DNA from: Nitrospirae bacterium RIFCSPLOWO2_02_FULL_62_14
Lineage (GTDB): Bacteria; Nitrospirota; Nitrospiria; Nitrospirales; Nitrospiraceae
Assembly: GCA_001805245.1 (NCBI GenBank)
Contig: MHEU01000075.1
Span: 9,672-44,846 of the forward strand
Direction: 5' to 3'
Length of the DNA: 35,175 bases
A program made the position numbers and the translations under genes. Below, one piece after another: positions 26,317-30,100 of this stretch (position 1 is the first letter of the stretch; each line of letters begins with the position of its first letter). The notes below the pieces were generated by a model. That model worked only from the letters and a program-made list of their open reading frames with translations. It searched no databases and had not been told where the DNA came from.

Positions 26317-26585
26317 CAGGGTGGCACGCCCCTCGCTTCAGCGCCTCCCGGAACGGCCCTTTCGGACTTTGCCGGGCGGAAGCCTTCTGGAATTCCCGCG
26401 GCCGCGGTCGTTGACCGCGGTGCCTTGGTCAGTTCCAGCTTTCCTGCCCGCTAAAGCCTCGGTGGGTGCCCCGCTTCTCCGGCAAAGTCCGCTCGATCTC
26501 GCCACCCCACTTTTTAGAATTGAAAGGCGACAGGCCACTTGCAAGCCCGTCGCCTTTAACGCTTCGCCACGTTCAGTGTGCTGCT
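26317..26585 (+). repeat. Left copy of the ~268-bp inverted repeat bounding the accessory island
   Basis: This sequence recurs inverted at 31762-32027 with high identity over most of its length, for example the stretch from CTTCTGGAATTCCCGCGG to the CCGGCAAAGTCCGCTCGATC block. Inside are nested inverted repeats: GGGTGGC / GCCACCC outside, GGACTTTGCCGG / CCGGCAAAGTCC next, CTGGAA / TTCCAG, and an 8-bp core hairpin CCGCGGTC-GTT-GACCGCGG. It then has an AAAGGCGAC / GTCGCCTTT hairpin and ends in the attC-like arm TAACGCTTCGCC. No gene is visible from 26305 to 26898. Confidence 0.8.
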
Positions 26586-26650: not shown

Positions 26651-26822
26651 CCCATCGAGAGCCTCTGGGTCGAGCGATCGAGGGTCCGCTTCTTTGACCA
26701 CCATCTACCGAAAAATTGTGTTCTGACCCCACGCAGCTCGCCTCAGATCTCTTGTTATCGTACAAGTCATTGGCATGATACATAAAATACGATTCAAAAG
26801 AACTCTTGCAATCCTCCGGTAA

Positions 26823-26920
26823 TTTTGAAAGAATTGCGCACATTTCTTTCAAAGATAGAAATGCTTTGAAAGTGGCCATTGACCCCTGGGTAGTACGTAT
26901 GGACGCGAAAGACTTTCAAA
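26823..26920 (+). promoter_or_regulatory. Cluster of four CTTTCAAAG half-sites around the fic start
   Basis: A perfect inverted repeat CTTTCAAAG (26846-26854) - 9 bases - CTTTGAAAG (26864-26872) lies 27 bases before the chosen fic start. Further half-sites are TTTTGAAAG at 26823-26831 and CTTTCAAA at 26913-26920 inside the first codons. The arrangement looks like an operator array; the Fic protein itself has a C-terminal winged-helix domain that could bind it. Confidence 0.6.
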
Positions 26921-28053
26921 CGCCGAGTGCCGGACGTGTTGTGAAGATGCCGCAAGGCTATCTGGCGTTTGTTCCTTCTCTCCTGCCTCCCGCGCTGAAG
27001 TACGACAACGATTTGGTGCTCGCGCTTTCTCGTGCCGATGCCGCACTGAGCGAACTGTCCGGTCTTGGCCGGCAATTACCGAATCCGCATTTACTCATCA
27101 GTCCCTATGTGCGTCGTGAGGCCGTTCTCTCTTCTCGCATCGAGGGCACGAAGGCCAGTCTTTCCGATCTATTACTGGATGAGTTGGACGCGGGAGTCTC
27201 GCGAAGCGGGGACGATGATGTCCGGGAAGTCCGGTGCTATGTCACGGCGCTGGAATATGGACTCAAGCGGCTCTCGACCCTGCCGCTCTCGTTGCGTCTC
27301 GTTCGGGAGATCCATGCCCGGCTCATGAAAGGCGTCAGAGGCGAACGGGCCATACCGGGAGAGTTCCGTCGTTCGCAGAATTGGATCGGTCCTTCCGGGA
27401 GCACGCCGGCCGCCGCATCGTATGTCCCGCCGCCTCCCGAGCACATGGACGAATTGTTGGCCGATTGGGAACGATTCCTCCACACACGGGACCGATTTCC
27501 CGATTTGGTTCAGTGCGCGATCATGCACGAGCAGTTTGAGGCGATTCACCCCTTCCTCGATGGAAACGGACGGGTCGGTCGCTTGTTGATCACGTTGTTT
27601 CTTGTGGAGCGAGGTCGTCTGTCGCAGCCGTTGTTGTACTTGTCCGCCTATATCGAAGCCCATCGGCAGGATTATTACGATTTGCTGCAACGGGTTCGGA
27701 CGCACGGCGACTGGACGGCATGGCTTCTGTTCTTTATTACGGGCGTCCTCGACATTTCCACGGAGGCCGCGGGCCAGGCCAGACGGCTCATTGATCTGCG
27801 GGAGCAATCTCGAGGGCGTCTGCGCGACAAGGCCAAAGCGCTGGTGTTACTGGATGAACTGTTCGTAAACCCTTACATGACGGTATCCAAGGCCGAACGC
27901 GTCTTAAAGGTCTCAAATCCAACCGCACGGCAAGCCGTTCTGTTACTTGAGCGAAAAGGATTGCTGGAGGAAGTCAGCGGCCGTCAGTGGGGACGGTTGT
28001 ATTTGGCCAAGCCGATCATGAACGTTCTCGAACCACCCTCGAAGAAGACCTGA
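26899..28053 (+). CDS. Fic-domain protein with inhibitory helix and C-terminal winged helix
   Basis: A 384-aa Fic protein; the family transfers AMP (or another nucleotide part) from NTPs to target proteins. The N-terminal Fic_N region starts 'MDAKDFQTPSAGR' and 'GYLAFVPSLLPP'. The inhibitory helix motif SSRIEG (residues 78-83, Ser/Thr-x-x-x-Glu-Gly) is present, so activity is probably self-restrained. The active-site motif HPFLDGNGRVGR (217-228) is intact. Residues ~310-380 form a winged-helix domain ('TVSKAERVLKVSNPTARQAVLLLERKGLL'). ATG 26899 matches usual family starts; an in-frame TTG at 26806 would run through the operator cluster. The gene sits between two 94-bp direct repeats, as a cassette would, and its stop is four bases before the second. 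Confidence 0.9.
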   Translation: MDAKDFQTPSAGRVVKMPQGYLAFVPSLLPPALKYDNDLVLALSRADAALSELSGLGRQLPNPHLLISPYVRREAVLSSRIEGTKASLSDLLLDELDAGVSRSGDDDVREVRCYVTALEYGLKRLSTLPLSLRLVREIHARLMKGVRGERAIPGEFRRSQNWIGPSGSTPAAASYVPPPPEHMDELLADWERFLHTRDRFPDLVQCAIMHEQFEAIHPFLDGNGRVGRLLITLFLVERGRLSQPLLYLSAYIEAHRQDYYDLLQRVRTHGDWTAWLLFFITGVLDISTEAAGQARRLIDLREQSRGRLRDKAKALVLLDELFVNPYMTVSKAERVLKVSNPTARQAVLLLERKGLLEEVSGRQWGRLYLAKPIMNVLEPPSKKT

Positions 28054-28057
28054 CCCT

Positions 28058-28151
28058 TAACGCTTCGCCACGTTCAGCGTGCTGCTCCGGTAGCTATTGC
28101 CCTCGAAACATTGCCTGCCCTGAGTGAGTCGAAGGGCCTGCCCAGAGCCCG
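28058..28151 (+). repeat. 94-bp direct repeat, copy 2, directly after fic
   Basis: Identical to 26557-26650 in 92 of 94 positions, starting four bases after the fic stop codon with TAACGCTTCGCCACG. The near-identity, compared with the more diverged related sites at 28961, 30098 and 31719, suggests the fic segment arrived or was duplicated recently. Confidence 0.85.
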
Positions 28152-28188
28152 TCGAGGGGCCTGCTCCATGTCTCTTGTTTATTCCCCA

Positions 28189-28217
28189 TTGCCCTGCTTG
28201 GGGAAATTCGCTAGACT
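28189..28217 (+). promoter_or_regulatory. Candidate promoter of the ORF6N gene
   Basis: TTGCCC (28189-28194), 17-base spacer, TAGACT (28212-28217): four of six matches at each box. It lies upstream of the palindrome at 28262 and the gene start at 28318. Confidence 0.35.
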
Positions 28218-28261
28218 GCCAGTCAATTTATTAGGCTTCCAAATAATAGATGGAACCGGTC

Positions 28262-28284
28262 TAAGGTCACAGAATGTGACCTTA
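28262..28284 (+). promoter_or_regulatory. Perfect 10-bp-arm palindrome upstream of the ORF6N gene
   Basis: TAAGGTCACA (28262-28271), GAA, TGTGACCTTA (28275-28284). It is 34 bases before the start codon, in the leader. Its core TCACA-n3-TGTGA resembles the TCGCA-n3-TGCGA cores of the three palindromes inside the gene, so it may be an operator recognised by the encoded DNA-binding protein. Confidence 0.65.
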
Positions 28285-28317
28285 AAGAATGCGACTATAC
28301 AGGGAGGCGACTGAACA

Positions 28318-28956
28318 ATGCGCGACCTGATCCCGCATGAACAGATCGAAAAGAGCATTCTTTTTCTGCGCGGGCAGAAAGTCATCCTGGATGCCGACTT
28401 GGCGAGGCTTTACGGGGTGCCGACCTATAGGTTCAACGAAGCGTTCAAACGAAATCGCCATCGGTTTCCTGATGATTTCGCCTTTCAATTGACGGCAGAC
28501 GAGTTCGCTGATTTGAGATCACAATATGCGACCTCAAGCGTGCAAGGCGCCGATAAATTGGAAGATACGGAGGACTCATCGCAATTTGCGATGAGTTCAT
28601 CCCGGAGACCTGGCCGTAAGGATCGCGCGAACCGGTCGCAATTTGCGACCAGTTCCAGCCGTCATCGTGGTGCCGCCTATCGTCCTTGGGCATTTACGGA
28701 GCATGGTGCGCTGATGGCCGCGAATATTCTCCGCAGCGAGCGCGCGGTGCAGATGAGCGTGATTGTGGTGCGCGCCTTTGTTCGATTGAGGGAAATGCTG
28801 GCAACCAACAAGACGCTGGCGGCAAAGCTGGCCGAGTTGGAGCGAAAAGTGGCCAGTCATGACGAGCATATCCGGTCGCTGTTTCAAACAATCCGCCAAC
28901 TGATGAACCCCCGGCCGTCCAAACCCCGTCGGATCGGCTTTCAGGCACGGGGCTGA
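28318..28956 (+). CDS. ORF6N-domain DNA-binding protein with internal repeat insertion
   Basis: A 212-aa protein. The N-terminal ORF6N domain is clear: 'IEKSILFLRGQKVILDADLARLYGV', 'RFPDDFAFQLTADEFADLRSQ' and, after an insertion, 'YRPWAFTEHGALMAANILRSERAVQM'. The family is found in phage and toxin-antitoxin-like settings and binds DNA. In usual members LRSQxxT is soon followed by the PxAFTE motif; here ~40 extra residues carry two more copies of the (S)SQFATSS peptide (copies at 67-74, 87-95, 107-114). A coiled-coil tail follows ('LAAKLAELERKVASHDEHI') and ends in the common basic 'RRIGFQARG'. GGGAGG lies eleven bases before the ATG. Its stop is four bases before an attC-like site. Confidence 0.85.
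   Translation: MRDLIPHEQIEKSILFLRGQKVILDADLARLYGVPTYRFNEAFKRNRHRFPDDFAFQLTADEFADLRSQYATSSVQGADKLEDTEDSSQFAMSSSRRPGRKDRANRSQFATSSSRHRGAAYRPWAFTEHGALMAANILRSERAVQMSVIVVRAFVRLREMLATNKTLAAKLAELERKVASHDEHIRSLFQTIRQLMNPRPSKPRRIGFQARG
28513..28655 (+). repeat. Three palindromes inside the ORF6N coding sequence
   Basis: Palindrome 1 (28513-28537): TTGAGATCACA-ATA-TGCGACCTCAA, 9 of 11 pairs. Palindrome 2 (28574-28596): ACTCATCGCAA-T-TTGCGATGAGT, all 11 pairs. Palindrome 3 (28629-28655): 13-bp arms with GGTCGCAA-T-TTGCGACC core, 12 of 13 pairs. Each encodes the SQ(F/Y)A(T/M) peptide in the same frame. Cores are conserved while the flanking arms differ between copies yet remain self-complementary. Confidence 0.8.
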
Positions 28957-28960
28957 CTGC

Positions 28961-29020
28961 TAACGCTTCGCCACGTTCGACGGGCAATTCTGGTAGTGAT
29001 CGTCCTCTGCCTTGATCGCT
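28961..29020 (+). repeat. attC-like site after the ORF6N gene
   Basis: Begins TAACGCTTCGCCACGTTCG four bases after the ORF6N stop, followed by GGGCAATTCTGGTAGTGAT, which matches the central part of the sites at 30098 and 31719 (minus strand). Only one arm is well conserved; the distal arm is degenerate, so the end point is approximate. Confidence 0.55.
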
Positions 29021-29043
29021 TTCTGGTGGACCTCGATTAATAG

Positions 29044-29071
29044 TTGACCAAAATTCGGTCACCTGTAGAAT
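29044..29071 (+). promoter_or_regulatory. Promoter with operator-like repeat for the antitoxin gene
   Basis: TTGACC (29044-29049), 16-base spacer, TAGAAT (29066-29071). The TGACC of the -35 box and GGTCA at 29057-29061 form an inverted repeat overlapping the promoter, as expected for autorepression by a Phd/YefM-type antitoxin. The start codon at 29079 is only eight bases beyond the -10 box, so the mRNA would be nearly leaderless. Confidence 0.55.
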
Positions 29072-29078
29072 AGAAATC

Positions 29079-29336
29079 ATGTCAAAGATGCTGCCGACCT
29101 CAAGAGTCAGAACACGTCTTCATGAGCTGGTCACGGCTGTGGCCAAAAGGGGAGAAACAATTGTGATCACTCGATACGGGAGGCCTGCCGCTGTCCTGGT
29201 GACCTACGAGAAATGCCGGCGGCAAAAGGAAACGCCGGACATTCTCTCCGATCCGGACATGATGCGGCAGATCGGGCAGAGCCGCCGGTTTTACGCCAGG
29301 GGAGCGAAGGGGCTGTCTCAGGATGATGTACTCTGA
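29079..29336 (+). CDS. Phd/YefM-family antitoxin without an adjacent toxin
   Basis: An 85-aa protein with the Phd/YefM fold: 'TSRVRTRLHELVTAVAKRGETIVITRYGRPAAVLVTYEKC' (residues ~5-45), which binds DNA, followed by a less structured tail that would normally cover a toxin. No RelE/ParE/Doc gene follows; the next gene encodes a nucleotidyltransferase 84 bases downstream. No Shine-Dalgarno is present and the promoter lies immediately upstream, so translation may be leaderless, from ATG 29079 or 29088. It could be an orphan left by toxin loss or an antitoxin acting on a distant toxin. Confidence 0.8.
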   Translation: MSKMLPTSRVRTRLHELVTAVAKRGETIVITRYGRPAAVLVTYEKCRRQKETPDILSDPDMMRQIGQSRRFYARGAKGLSQDDVL

Positions 29337-29348
29337 CCCCGTGCAGTG

Positions 29349-29377
29349 TTGACAGAATCGACCTTGGACCGTAGGCT
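29349..29377 (+). promoter_or_regulatory. Candidate promoter of mntA-hepT
   Basis: A consensus TTGACA (29349-29354) with a 17-base spacer to TAGGCT (29372-29377), a weak -10. It lies 44 bases before the mntA start, which has GGGGAG nine bases upstream. Confidence 0.4.
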
Positions 29378-29420
29378 GTGCGCGTGAGTCGGTGATCTGA
29401 TCGTAGGGGAGTTGTAAGAA

Positions 29421-29741
29421 ATGACAAAAGTGTCCAGATCAGGTGCCCGCCAGAAGCTTCGGCGGTACATGAATGCCCTACGGCGGCAGTTGCCCATGCT
29501 GCGAACCAGGTTTCACGTCCGGTACCTCGGCGTGTTTGGTTCGTATGTCCACGGGACTCCCCGGAGGGGCAGCGATCTTGACGTGTTGGTGGAGTTTTCC
29601 GAGCAACCGAGCCTTTTCGAGTTTCTTGAGCTTGAAAACCGGTTGTCCTCCCTCCTGGGCGTTAAAGTGGACCTGGTGATGAAAGGGACGCTCAAACCGC
29701 TCATCGGCCGTCGGATTCTCGCCGAGGTCGTGGGTCTGTGA
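29421..29741 (+). CDS. mntA: MntA-type minimal nucleotidyltransferase antitoxin
   Basis: A 106-aa minimal nucleotidyltransferase. The catalytic signature GS-x10-DxD is complete: '[20 protein letters not shown]' with GS at 40-41 and Asp52/Asp54; '[13 protein letters not shown]' supplies the third acidic residue (Asp ~88). In characterised MntA-HepT pairs this enzyme adds AMP to a tyrosine of the HEPN toxin and neutralises it. Its stop TGA overlaps the GTG start of hepT by four bases (GTGA), the usual arrangement. Confidence 0.9.
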
Positions 29742-30100
29742 CGCGCACGCGCGAATTTCTCGATTACCTCGCCGATATCCAGCACGCCGCACAGCACATC
29801 TCGAAATTCATCGCCGGCATGACTTGGCCCAGGTTCTCGCGGGATCAGAAGACCATCTTCGCGGTGGTCAGGGCCTTCGAGATTATCGGGGAAGCGGCCA
29901 AGAAAATCCCGCCGTCCGTCCGCAAGCGGCATCCGAAGGTCCCGTGGAAGCAGATGGCGGGCATGCGGGACAAGCTCATCCATGAGTACTTCGGAGTGAA
30001 CTACGAGGTGCTGTGGAAAACGGCCAAGGAGGATATCCCTCCAGTACGACGGCTCATGGCGAAAGTGCTGAAGGCAGAAACCAGACGAGCGCGCAGATAA
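29738..30100 (+). CDS. hepT: HepT-type HEPN ribonuclease toxin
   Basis: A 120-aa all-helical HEPN protein. The RX4HXY motif is intact: R77-DKLI-H82-E-Y84 in '[21 protein letters not shown]'; Arg and His form the RNase site and Tyr84 is the residue modified by MntA in studied pairs. Upstream '[18 protein letters not shown]' is the family's first conserved helix. The GTG start overlaps mntA. The TAA stop is itself the first part of an attC-like site (TAACGCTTCGCC), so the toxin-antitoxin pair looks like a cassette. Confidence 0.9.

Follow-up and report, generated by a model that had tools for sequence, protein, structure and literature searches.

A palindromic DNA element with covarying arms in ORF6N genes, tentatively an autoregulatory site

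Several kinds of palindromic DNA lying within or beside genes are known, and each resembles the element described here in some respect. The palindromic amphipathic repeat coding elements, or PARCELs, are dyad-symmetric coding DNA under a repeated protein motif; they are widespread and horizontally spread, their palindrome sequences are variable, and the role of their palindromy is unexplained (PMC2996958). The Rickettsia palindromic elements and their counterparts in Wolbachia and Methanocaldococcus (cited in PMC2996958) likewise place palindromic DNA in frame within genes, in non-structured protein segments. REP sequences are short palindromes tied to a protein family, the RAYTs, and hairpins have been proposed for them. 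Integron attC sites are recombination sites where folded structure outweighs sequence, a priority that the element described below may share. In the open literature searched, outside which subscription papers lay, we found no description of a palindrome in ORF6N, KilA-N or Bro-N genes.

The ORF6N gene of the window and its palindromes

The window is a stretch of 35,175 nucleotides from the genome of Nitrospirae bacterium RIFCSPLOWO2_02_FULL_62_14 (contig MHEU01000075.1). The source genome holds one ORF6N gene, which is listed in Table 1 together with one palindrome in its leader and three within its coding sequence. Sites were scored as two 12-bp arms around a 3-nt centre, with paired positions counted out of 12.

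Table 1. Coordinates of the ORF6N gene and associated features in the window.
Feature	Position	Strand	Evidence or remark
ORF6N-domain gene, 212 aa, PF10543	28318..28956	+	Pfam E 7.2e-30; PADLOC PDC-S05 2.5e-47; PHROG anti-repressor 7.2e-20; Foldseek against viral models
Leader palindrome, TCTAAGGTCACA-GAA-TGTGACCTTAAA	28260..28286	none	11/12 paired, inner 10 pairs perfect; ends 31 nt 5' of the ATG
RBS-like GGGAGG, in the order leader palindrome, RBS, start codon	28302..28307	+	sequence reading
Internal palindrome 1, TTTGAGATCACA-ATA-TGCGACCTCAAG	28512..28538	none	degenerate, 9/12; codes DLRSQYATSS
Codons of residues 79-116, mostly predicted disordered, with internal palindromes 2 and 3	28552..28665	+	AlphaFold2 model
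Internal palindrome 2, GGACTCATCGCA-ATT-TGCGATGAGTTC	28572..28598	none	11/12; codes DSSQFAMSS
Internal palindrome 3, GAACCGGTCGCA-ATT-TGCGACCAGTTC	28629..28655	none	11/12; codes NRSQFATSS

The Pfam match to PF10543 scored 103.6 bits against a curated cut-off of 27.8. In PADLOC the gene falls under phage defence candidate PDC-S05, a role that would follow from guilt-by-embedding evidence; most candidates of this kind still await experimental validation (PMC12988326). The protein also matched the PHROG anti-repressor family phrog_4792, and its fold neighbours in a Foldseek search against viral models were phage KilA-N/antirepressor proteins. Being an ORF6N member by profile and resembling viral antirepressor models, it is akin to the ORF6N/KilA-N/Bro-N phage antirepressor family, and we regard it as a putative antirepressor/KilA-N-like protein with a predicted DNA-binding-type fold. 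A fold search of the PDB gave no significant match, and no informative relative by sequence or fold was found among solved structures. AlphaFold2 models a confident domain with pLDDT <50 at residues 79-84 and 88-116, and palindrome 1 encodes the end of the helix that precedes this disordered stretch.

The initial annotation had described the leader palindrome as perfect and the three internal ones as near-perfect. All four sites are present where it had placed them. The inner 10 pairs of the leader copy are indeed perfect, though the whole is 11/12; internal copies 2 and 3 are both 11/12, and "near-perfect" is too strong for copy 1, as only 9 of its 12 positions pair. The proposed expansion of the protein by about 40 residues fits the two extra modules in the region that AlphaFold2 predicts to be disordered. 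Internal palindrome 3 lies at about -48 nt from the FTE codons, which is the position common to most homologues. When the window protein was synonymously recoded 20,000 times, at least one site at >=11/12 appeared in 0.04% of the recodings and two such sites in none, and chance is thereby ruled out for the palindromes of this gene. The core TCRCANNNTGYGA (TCRCA-N3-TGYGA) occurs eight times in the 2.66-Mb genome, four of them at the ORF6N gene. The arms of the remaining four matches pair at 5-8 of 12 positions, i.e. they are not palindromic, and a genome-wide regulon in the source genome was rejected on this ground.

Around the ORF6N gene (window 26806-30100) lies a cluster of genes of defence or toxin-antitoxin type, with a SoFic-like Fic gene, a Phd/YefM antitoxin gene and a nucleotidyltransferase gene (PADLOC PDC-S09) paired with a HepT-like protein as neighbours. 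A repeat starting TAACGCTTCGCCACGTTC occurs at window positions 26557, 28058, 28961 and 30098 on the plus strand and 31770 on the minus strand, no farther than 5 nt from the stop codons of the genes for Fic, ORF6N and the HepT-like protein; the genome has about 35 copies, and a reversed control has none. It looks like a candidate cassette-type 3' repeat.

Distribution and arm covariation among ORF6N genes

ORF6N genes were collected with protein patterns that left out the SQ motif; by matching the Pfam profile to Nitrospirota genomes and to a second set, phylum-wide and centred on a genome labelled Ignavibacteriae; and by protein similarity in plasmids and phages, with additions via one Nitrospira relative. 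The set of 173 genes used below is distinct in the loop region and excludes loci fetched with a palindrome pattern (L120-L149 and L251-L265). Our earlier counts of palindromes and of covariation had taken in the pattern-fetched loci L120-L149; the result held with pattern-fetched loci excluded, and sampling bias was therefore rejected as the cause of the palindrome frequency.

A palindrome of at least 10/12 was found at the same place in 167 of the 173 genes (97%), across several phyla, and a perfect one in 82. Among 8,650 synonymous recodings, 1.1% reached at least 10/12 and 0% were perfect. Most genes (121) have a single site, as had been claimed for ordinary members of the family, while 40 have two, five have three, one has four and six have none. 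The initial annotation had proposed looking for palindromes with covarying arms in homologues, and these are what the 97% carry; the contrary case, in which the same peptides are encoded by non-palindromic codons, was not seen, synonymous recodings of these peptides being almost never palindromic. The density of perfect palindromes in ORF6N genes is about 110 times that of the flanking DNA.

A search for GGTCRCANNNTGYGACC in 198 Nitrospirota genomes gave matches in 49 genomes, the reversed control pattern being rare. Of 30 extended-core loci examined in Nitrospirota, 27 fall within an ORF6N gene, in the leader of one or in a remnant. Palindrome copies with no ORF6N gene in the 3 kb fetched were found at L261, L263 and L134. 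At L263 two palindromes (about 1490-1590), with no ORF6N gene, are flanked by a DUF3800-like and a Res-like ORF in what seems to be a type III restriction locus, and the pair is possibly a relic. At L134 (1503-1680) three palindrome-like sites with different arms are clustered where no ORF6N gene is detectable. The notion that the palindrome is a spreading element accordingly survives in part: some genes have additional internal modules, a leader can contain as many as four copies, and a small number of copies have no ORF6N gene with them. Against it, the main site keeps one position across phyla, and the palindrome is otherwise hardly found except in ORF6N genes and their leaders.

In viral contigs, the window protein as query retrieved two distant relatives and the Legionella query none; scanning the two relatives (L150 and L151) revealed no such palindrome. 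In a group of two-site Nitrospira genes, the second site has decayed in L227 and L230, and the first is nearly intact. On a plasmid of Treponema saccharophilum (L185), the ORF6N gene lies within a type I restriction-modification operon, its neighbours being genes for a DNA methyltransferase, a winged-helix protein, an S subunit and Fic.

Watson-Crick pairing of the arms holds for 93% of pairs, compared with 62% after shuffling. For 156 sites picked solely by the peptide SQ.[AV], the eight flanking pairs were Watson-Crick in 113-145 sites, against 49-78 when left and right arms were exchanged between sites, and the maxima of 300 such shuffles lie far below the observed values. The covariation persisted when each 70%-identity cluster was represented by a single gene. 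The consensus of the element is N7-T-N2-C-A-NNN-T-G-N2-A-N7', with arms of about 12 bp and a 3-nt AT-rich centre. On sequence evidence, the conserved property is the mutual complementarity of the arms together with a few fixed bases (T, CA/TG).

The core TCGCA/TGCGA encodes SQxAT, TCACA/TGTGA encodes SQxVT, TGCCA/TGGCA encodes CQxGT, TTCCA/TGGAA encodes FQxGT and TTTCA/TGAAA encodes FQxET; the Treponema gene (L185) has the core TCGAA/TTCGA. The five peptide motifs are evidently a single palindrome whose bases have varied. Because the inner core and the arms covary, so do the residues before and after the core (R, W or K with T, S with M, and I with I). A minority of genes, from several distant loci and with Legionella among them, use the other codon phase of the palindrome at the same position of the domain (EVVTNCDHL, ELVTNWHRF, ELVENFDRF), and the palindrome constraint is evidently independent of the reading frame. 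Since the arms change together across bacteria, part of the conserved ORF6N motif seems to be dictated by DNA symmetry.

Possible functions of the palindrome

The reading that we prefer, though we put it at somewhat under an even chance, is of a DNA element selected for its symmetry and probably serving as an autoregulatory site of the ORF6N protein. ORF6N genes carry a double-stranded cis element: nearly every member has one copy in a flexible loop of the domain, with at least one copy just 5' of the ribosome-binding site in some, and two to four internal copies in some. The ORF6N protein would recognise DNA with paired arms (a dyad, or DNA prone to form a cruciform) largely irrespective of arm sequence and, via the leader and gene-body sites, would regulate how its own gene is transcribed; at the leader, 11-31 nt from the ATG, initiation would be affected by protein bound there or by an extruded structure. 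As the loop tolerates any amino acids that a palindrome encodes, the LRSQxATS motif would be largely a by-product of the DNA site. We infer autoregulation because leader copies lie mostly at this distance from the ATG and the protein fold is of DNA-binding type. Put more generally, and with the same reserve, this may be a gene family marked by a DNA site within itself that is recognised by the symmetry of its arms (as cruciform or hairpin), is readable in more than one frame and dictates a protein motif, the protein binding the site to control or to move the gene. Against the preferred reading, we identified no DNA-binding protein already known to read symmetry independently of sequence in such a manner; the lack of a significant PDB fold match, the decayed second sites at L227 and L230 and the copies lacking a nearby ORF6N gene (L261, L263, L134) also weigh against it.

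A clear leader copy was found in only 19 of 174 ORF6N genes, a frequency unlike that of a standard autoregulatory operator and one that counts against an autoregulatory site. These copies end mostly 11-31 nt 5' of the ATG and have the same symmetry and fixed bases (T, CA/TG), though they lie outside the ORF6N coding sequence. An ORF6N-like stretch upstream of the leader palindrome was seen at L123, L094, L103 and L193, and weakly at L114 and L073; the idea that leader palindromes are remnants of upstream ORF6N copies was rejected for most genes. The ORF6N leader at L094 (G008) contains four palindromes with four different arms, and its array includes another ORF6N gene.

The chief rival to autoregulation, possible but on balance unlikely, is a recombination or mobility site, that is, hairpin or cruciform DNA where ORF6N genes duplicate, truncate, fuse and are lost, and so spread and shuffle. 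At L123 (1200-1640), a tandem ORF6N array, each truncated copy ends in the leader palindrome of the next; L148 has an internal deletion at the palindrome, L125 joins the left arm of one palindrome type to the right arm of another, and L126 and L147 retain only the part up to the palindrome. The number of modules, which ranges from 1 to 4, and the palindromes without an ORF6N gene in the seeming type III restriction locus (L263) point the same way. However, the main site occupies one fixed position in distant phyla, which is what one would expect of a regulatory or structural site, and an upstream ORF6N remnant is absent for most leader copies. Palindromes are also general rearrangement hot spots, so that the junctions there may be a side effect, and the truncated copies came from the palindrome-pattern search, hence from a biased sample that gives no rate.

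We give a rather low probability to an ordinary operator bound in a sequence-specific way by a symmetric ORF6N dimer, with a specificity that differs among family members so that the arms covary across genes. The consensus positions (T, CA/TG and YTTGAGG-like arms), a leader site adjoining the start codon and the DNA-binding-type fold speak for such an operator. Yet in the 19 genes with leader copies, the arms of leader and internal sites agreed at 8.5/12 within a gene and 8.2/12 between genes (sd 0.24; 6% of shuffles reach 8.5), and the core dinucleotides at 0.33 and 0.36, respectively. Nor are the internal sites within one gene closer to each other than to sites of other genes, and CGCA and CACA cores occur together in two-site genes. 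This absence of any greater likeness within a gene than between unrelated genes speaks against self-recognition of the ordinary sequence-specific kind, and it disfavours the simple form, one protein and one operator sequence, of the initial annotation's suggestion that the protein may bind its own gene body. The same sequence in leader and other sites, as in a classical autoregulatory operator, was not found, and a gene-specific operator was rejected, leader-internal similarity not being clearly above that between genes. Moreover, the half-sites of a dimer, being independent, should not covary, and while a family of sequence-specific dimers could give covariation between genes, it could not give the mix of arms within a gene.

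Quasipalindrome correction via template switching is established in bacteria. A palindrome that perfects itself in this way, replication repeatedly copying one arm onto the other, would show covariation with little or no function, and we consider this improbable as a full account. Where genes are about 80% identical, two-sided changes are more frequent than one-sided ones, but the closest relatives (>=90% identity) differ by 5 one-sided and 0 two-sided changes, a comparison of few data. The process also leaves unexplained the 97% retention at one position across phyla, the fixed core bases and the near-confinement to one gene family. Template switching could help in keeping the arms perfect.

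An mRNA hairpin governing translation or RNA stability is highly improbable. Leader copies abut the ribosome-binding site, and RNA could form a 12-bp stem closed by a 3-nt loop, but such a hairpin should tolerate G.U and have a strand. Mismatched pairs on the coding strand number 38 for G-T and 46 for A-C (shuffled expectation 149 and 157), the centre triplets are strand-symmetric (AAT 62/ATT 52, ATC 12/GAT 9, AAC 6/GTT 7), and no Rfam family matched; an RNA hairpin element was rejected on these three grounds. With G-T not favoured over A-C and the centres symmetric, selection appears to act on the DNA and not on the mRNA, and the counts demonstrate, at the level of sequence comparison, a constraint on double-stranded DNA. 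The earlier suggestion of a structure-selected element is supported, at the level of DNA rather than RNA. That SQxAT is conserved at the protein level and its palindromy is an accident of codon usage can be practically dismissed: the peptide motif is conserved in many members, but synonymous recoding, the second-frame genes, the non-coding leader copies and the covariation of residues across the site refute it.

The conserved motif of a large and widely annotated family appears, then, to stem from a DNA palindrome and not from what the protein does, and the genes concerned are listed as phage-defence candidates. They offer a clean system for asking whether cells read DNA symmetry independently of sequence, and they carry the warning that ORF6N profile models and covariation-based structure inference partly read DNA constraints.

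Comparison with described palindromic elements

The ORF6N element is set apart from the known palindromic coding elements by being short and nearly perfect, by belonging to one DNA-binding gene family, by its presence in some leaders and by its covarying arms. PARCELs consist of 25-residue DUF285 repeats in tandem, whose dyads are imperfect and differ in length and phase, whereas the ORF6N element is a nearly perfect 27-mer that keeps its place within one DNA-binding domain family and occurs in non-coding leaders as well; the 25-residue DUF285/TIGR02167 tandem repeats were not found in the window protein, in which Pfam finds only ORF6N. Rickettsia-type elements enter assorted unrelated genes of one genome, whereas the ORF6N element is almost confined to one gene family in many phyla and has covarying arms instead of a shared repeat sequence; the 27 of 30 ORF6N-linked sites in Nitrospirota do not show a spread over many unrelated genes of one genome. 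REPs are extragenic, occur in high copy number and carry a GTAG/CGTC tag, whereas the ORF6N element is intragenic and has few copies, and Pfam finds no transposase domain in the ORF6N protein. In a comparison by eye, attC sites, which follow the cassette gene, are bulged and contain two core pairs, whereas the ORF6N palindromes are uninterrupted, symmetric and situated within the gene.
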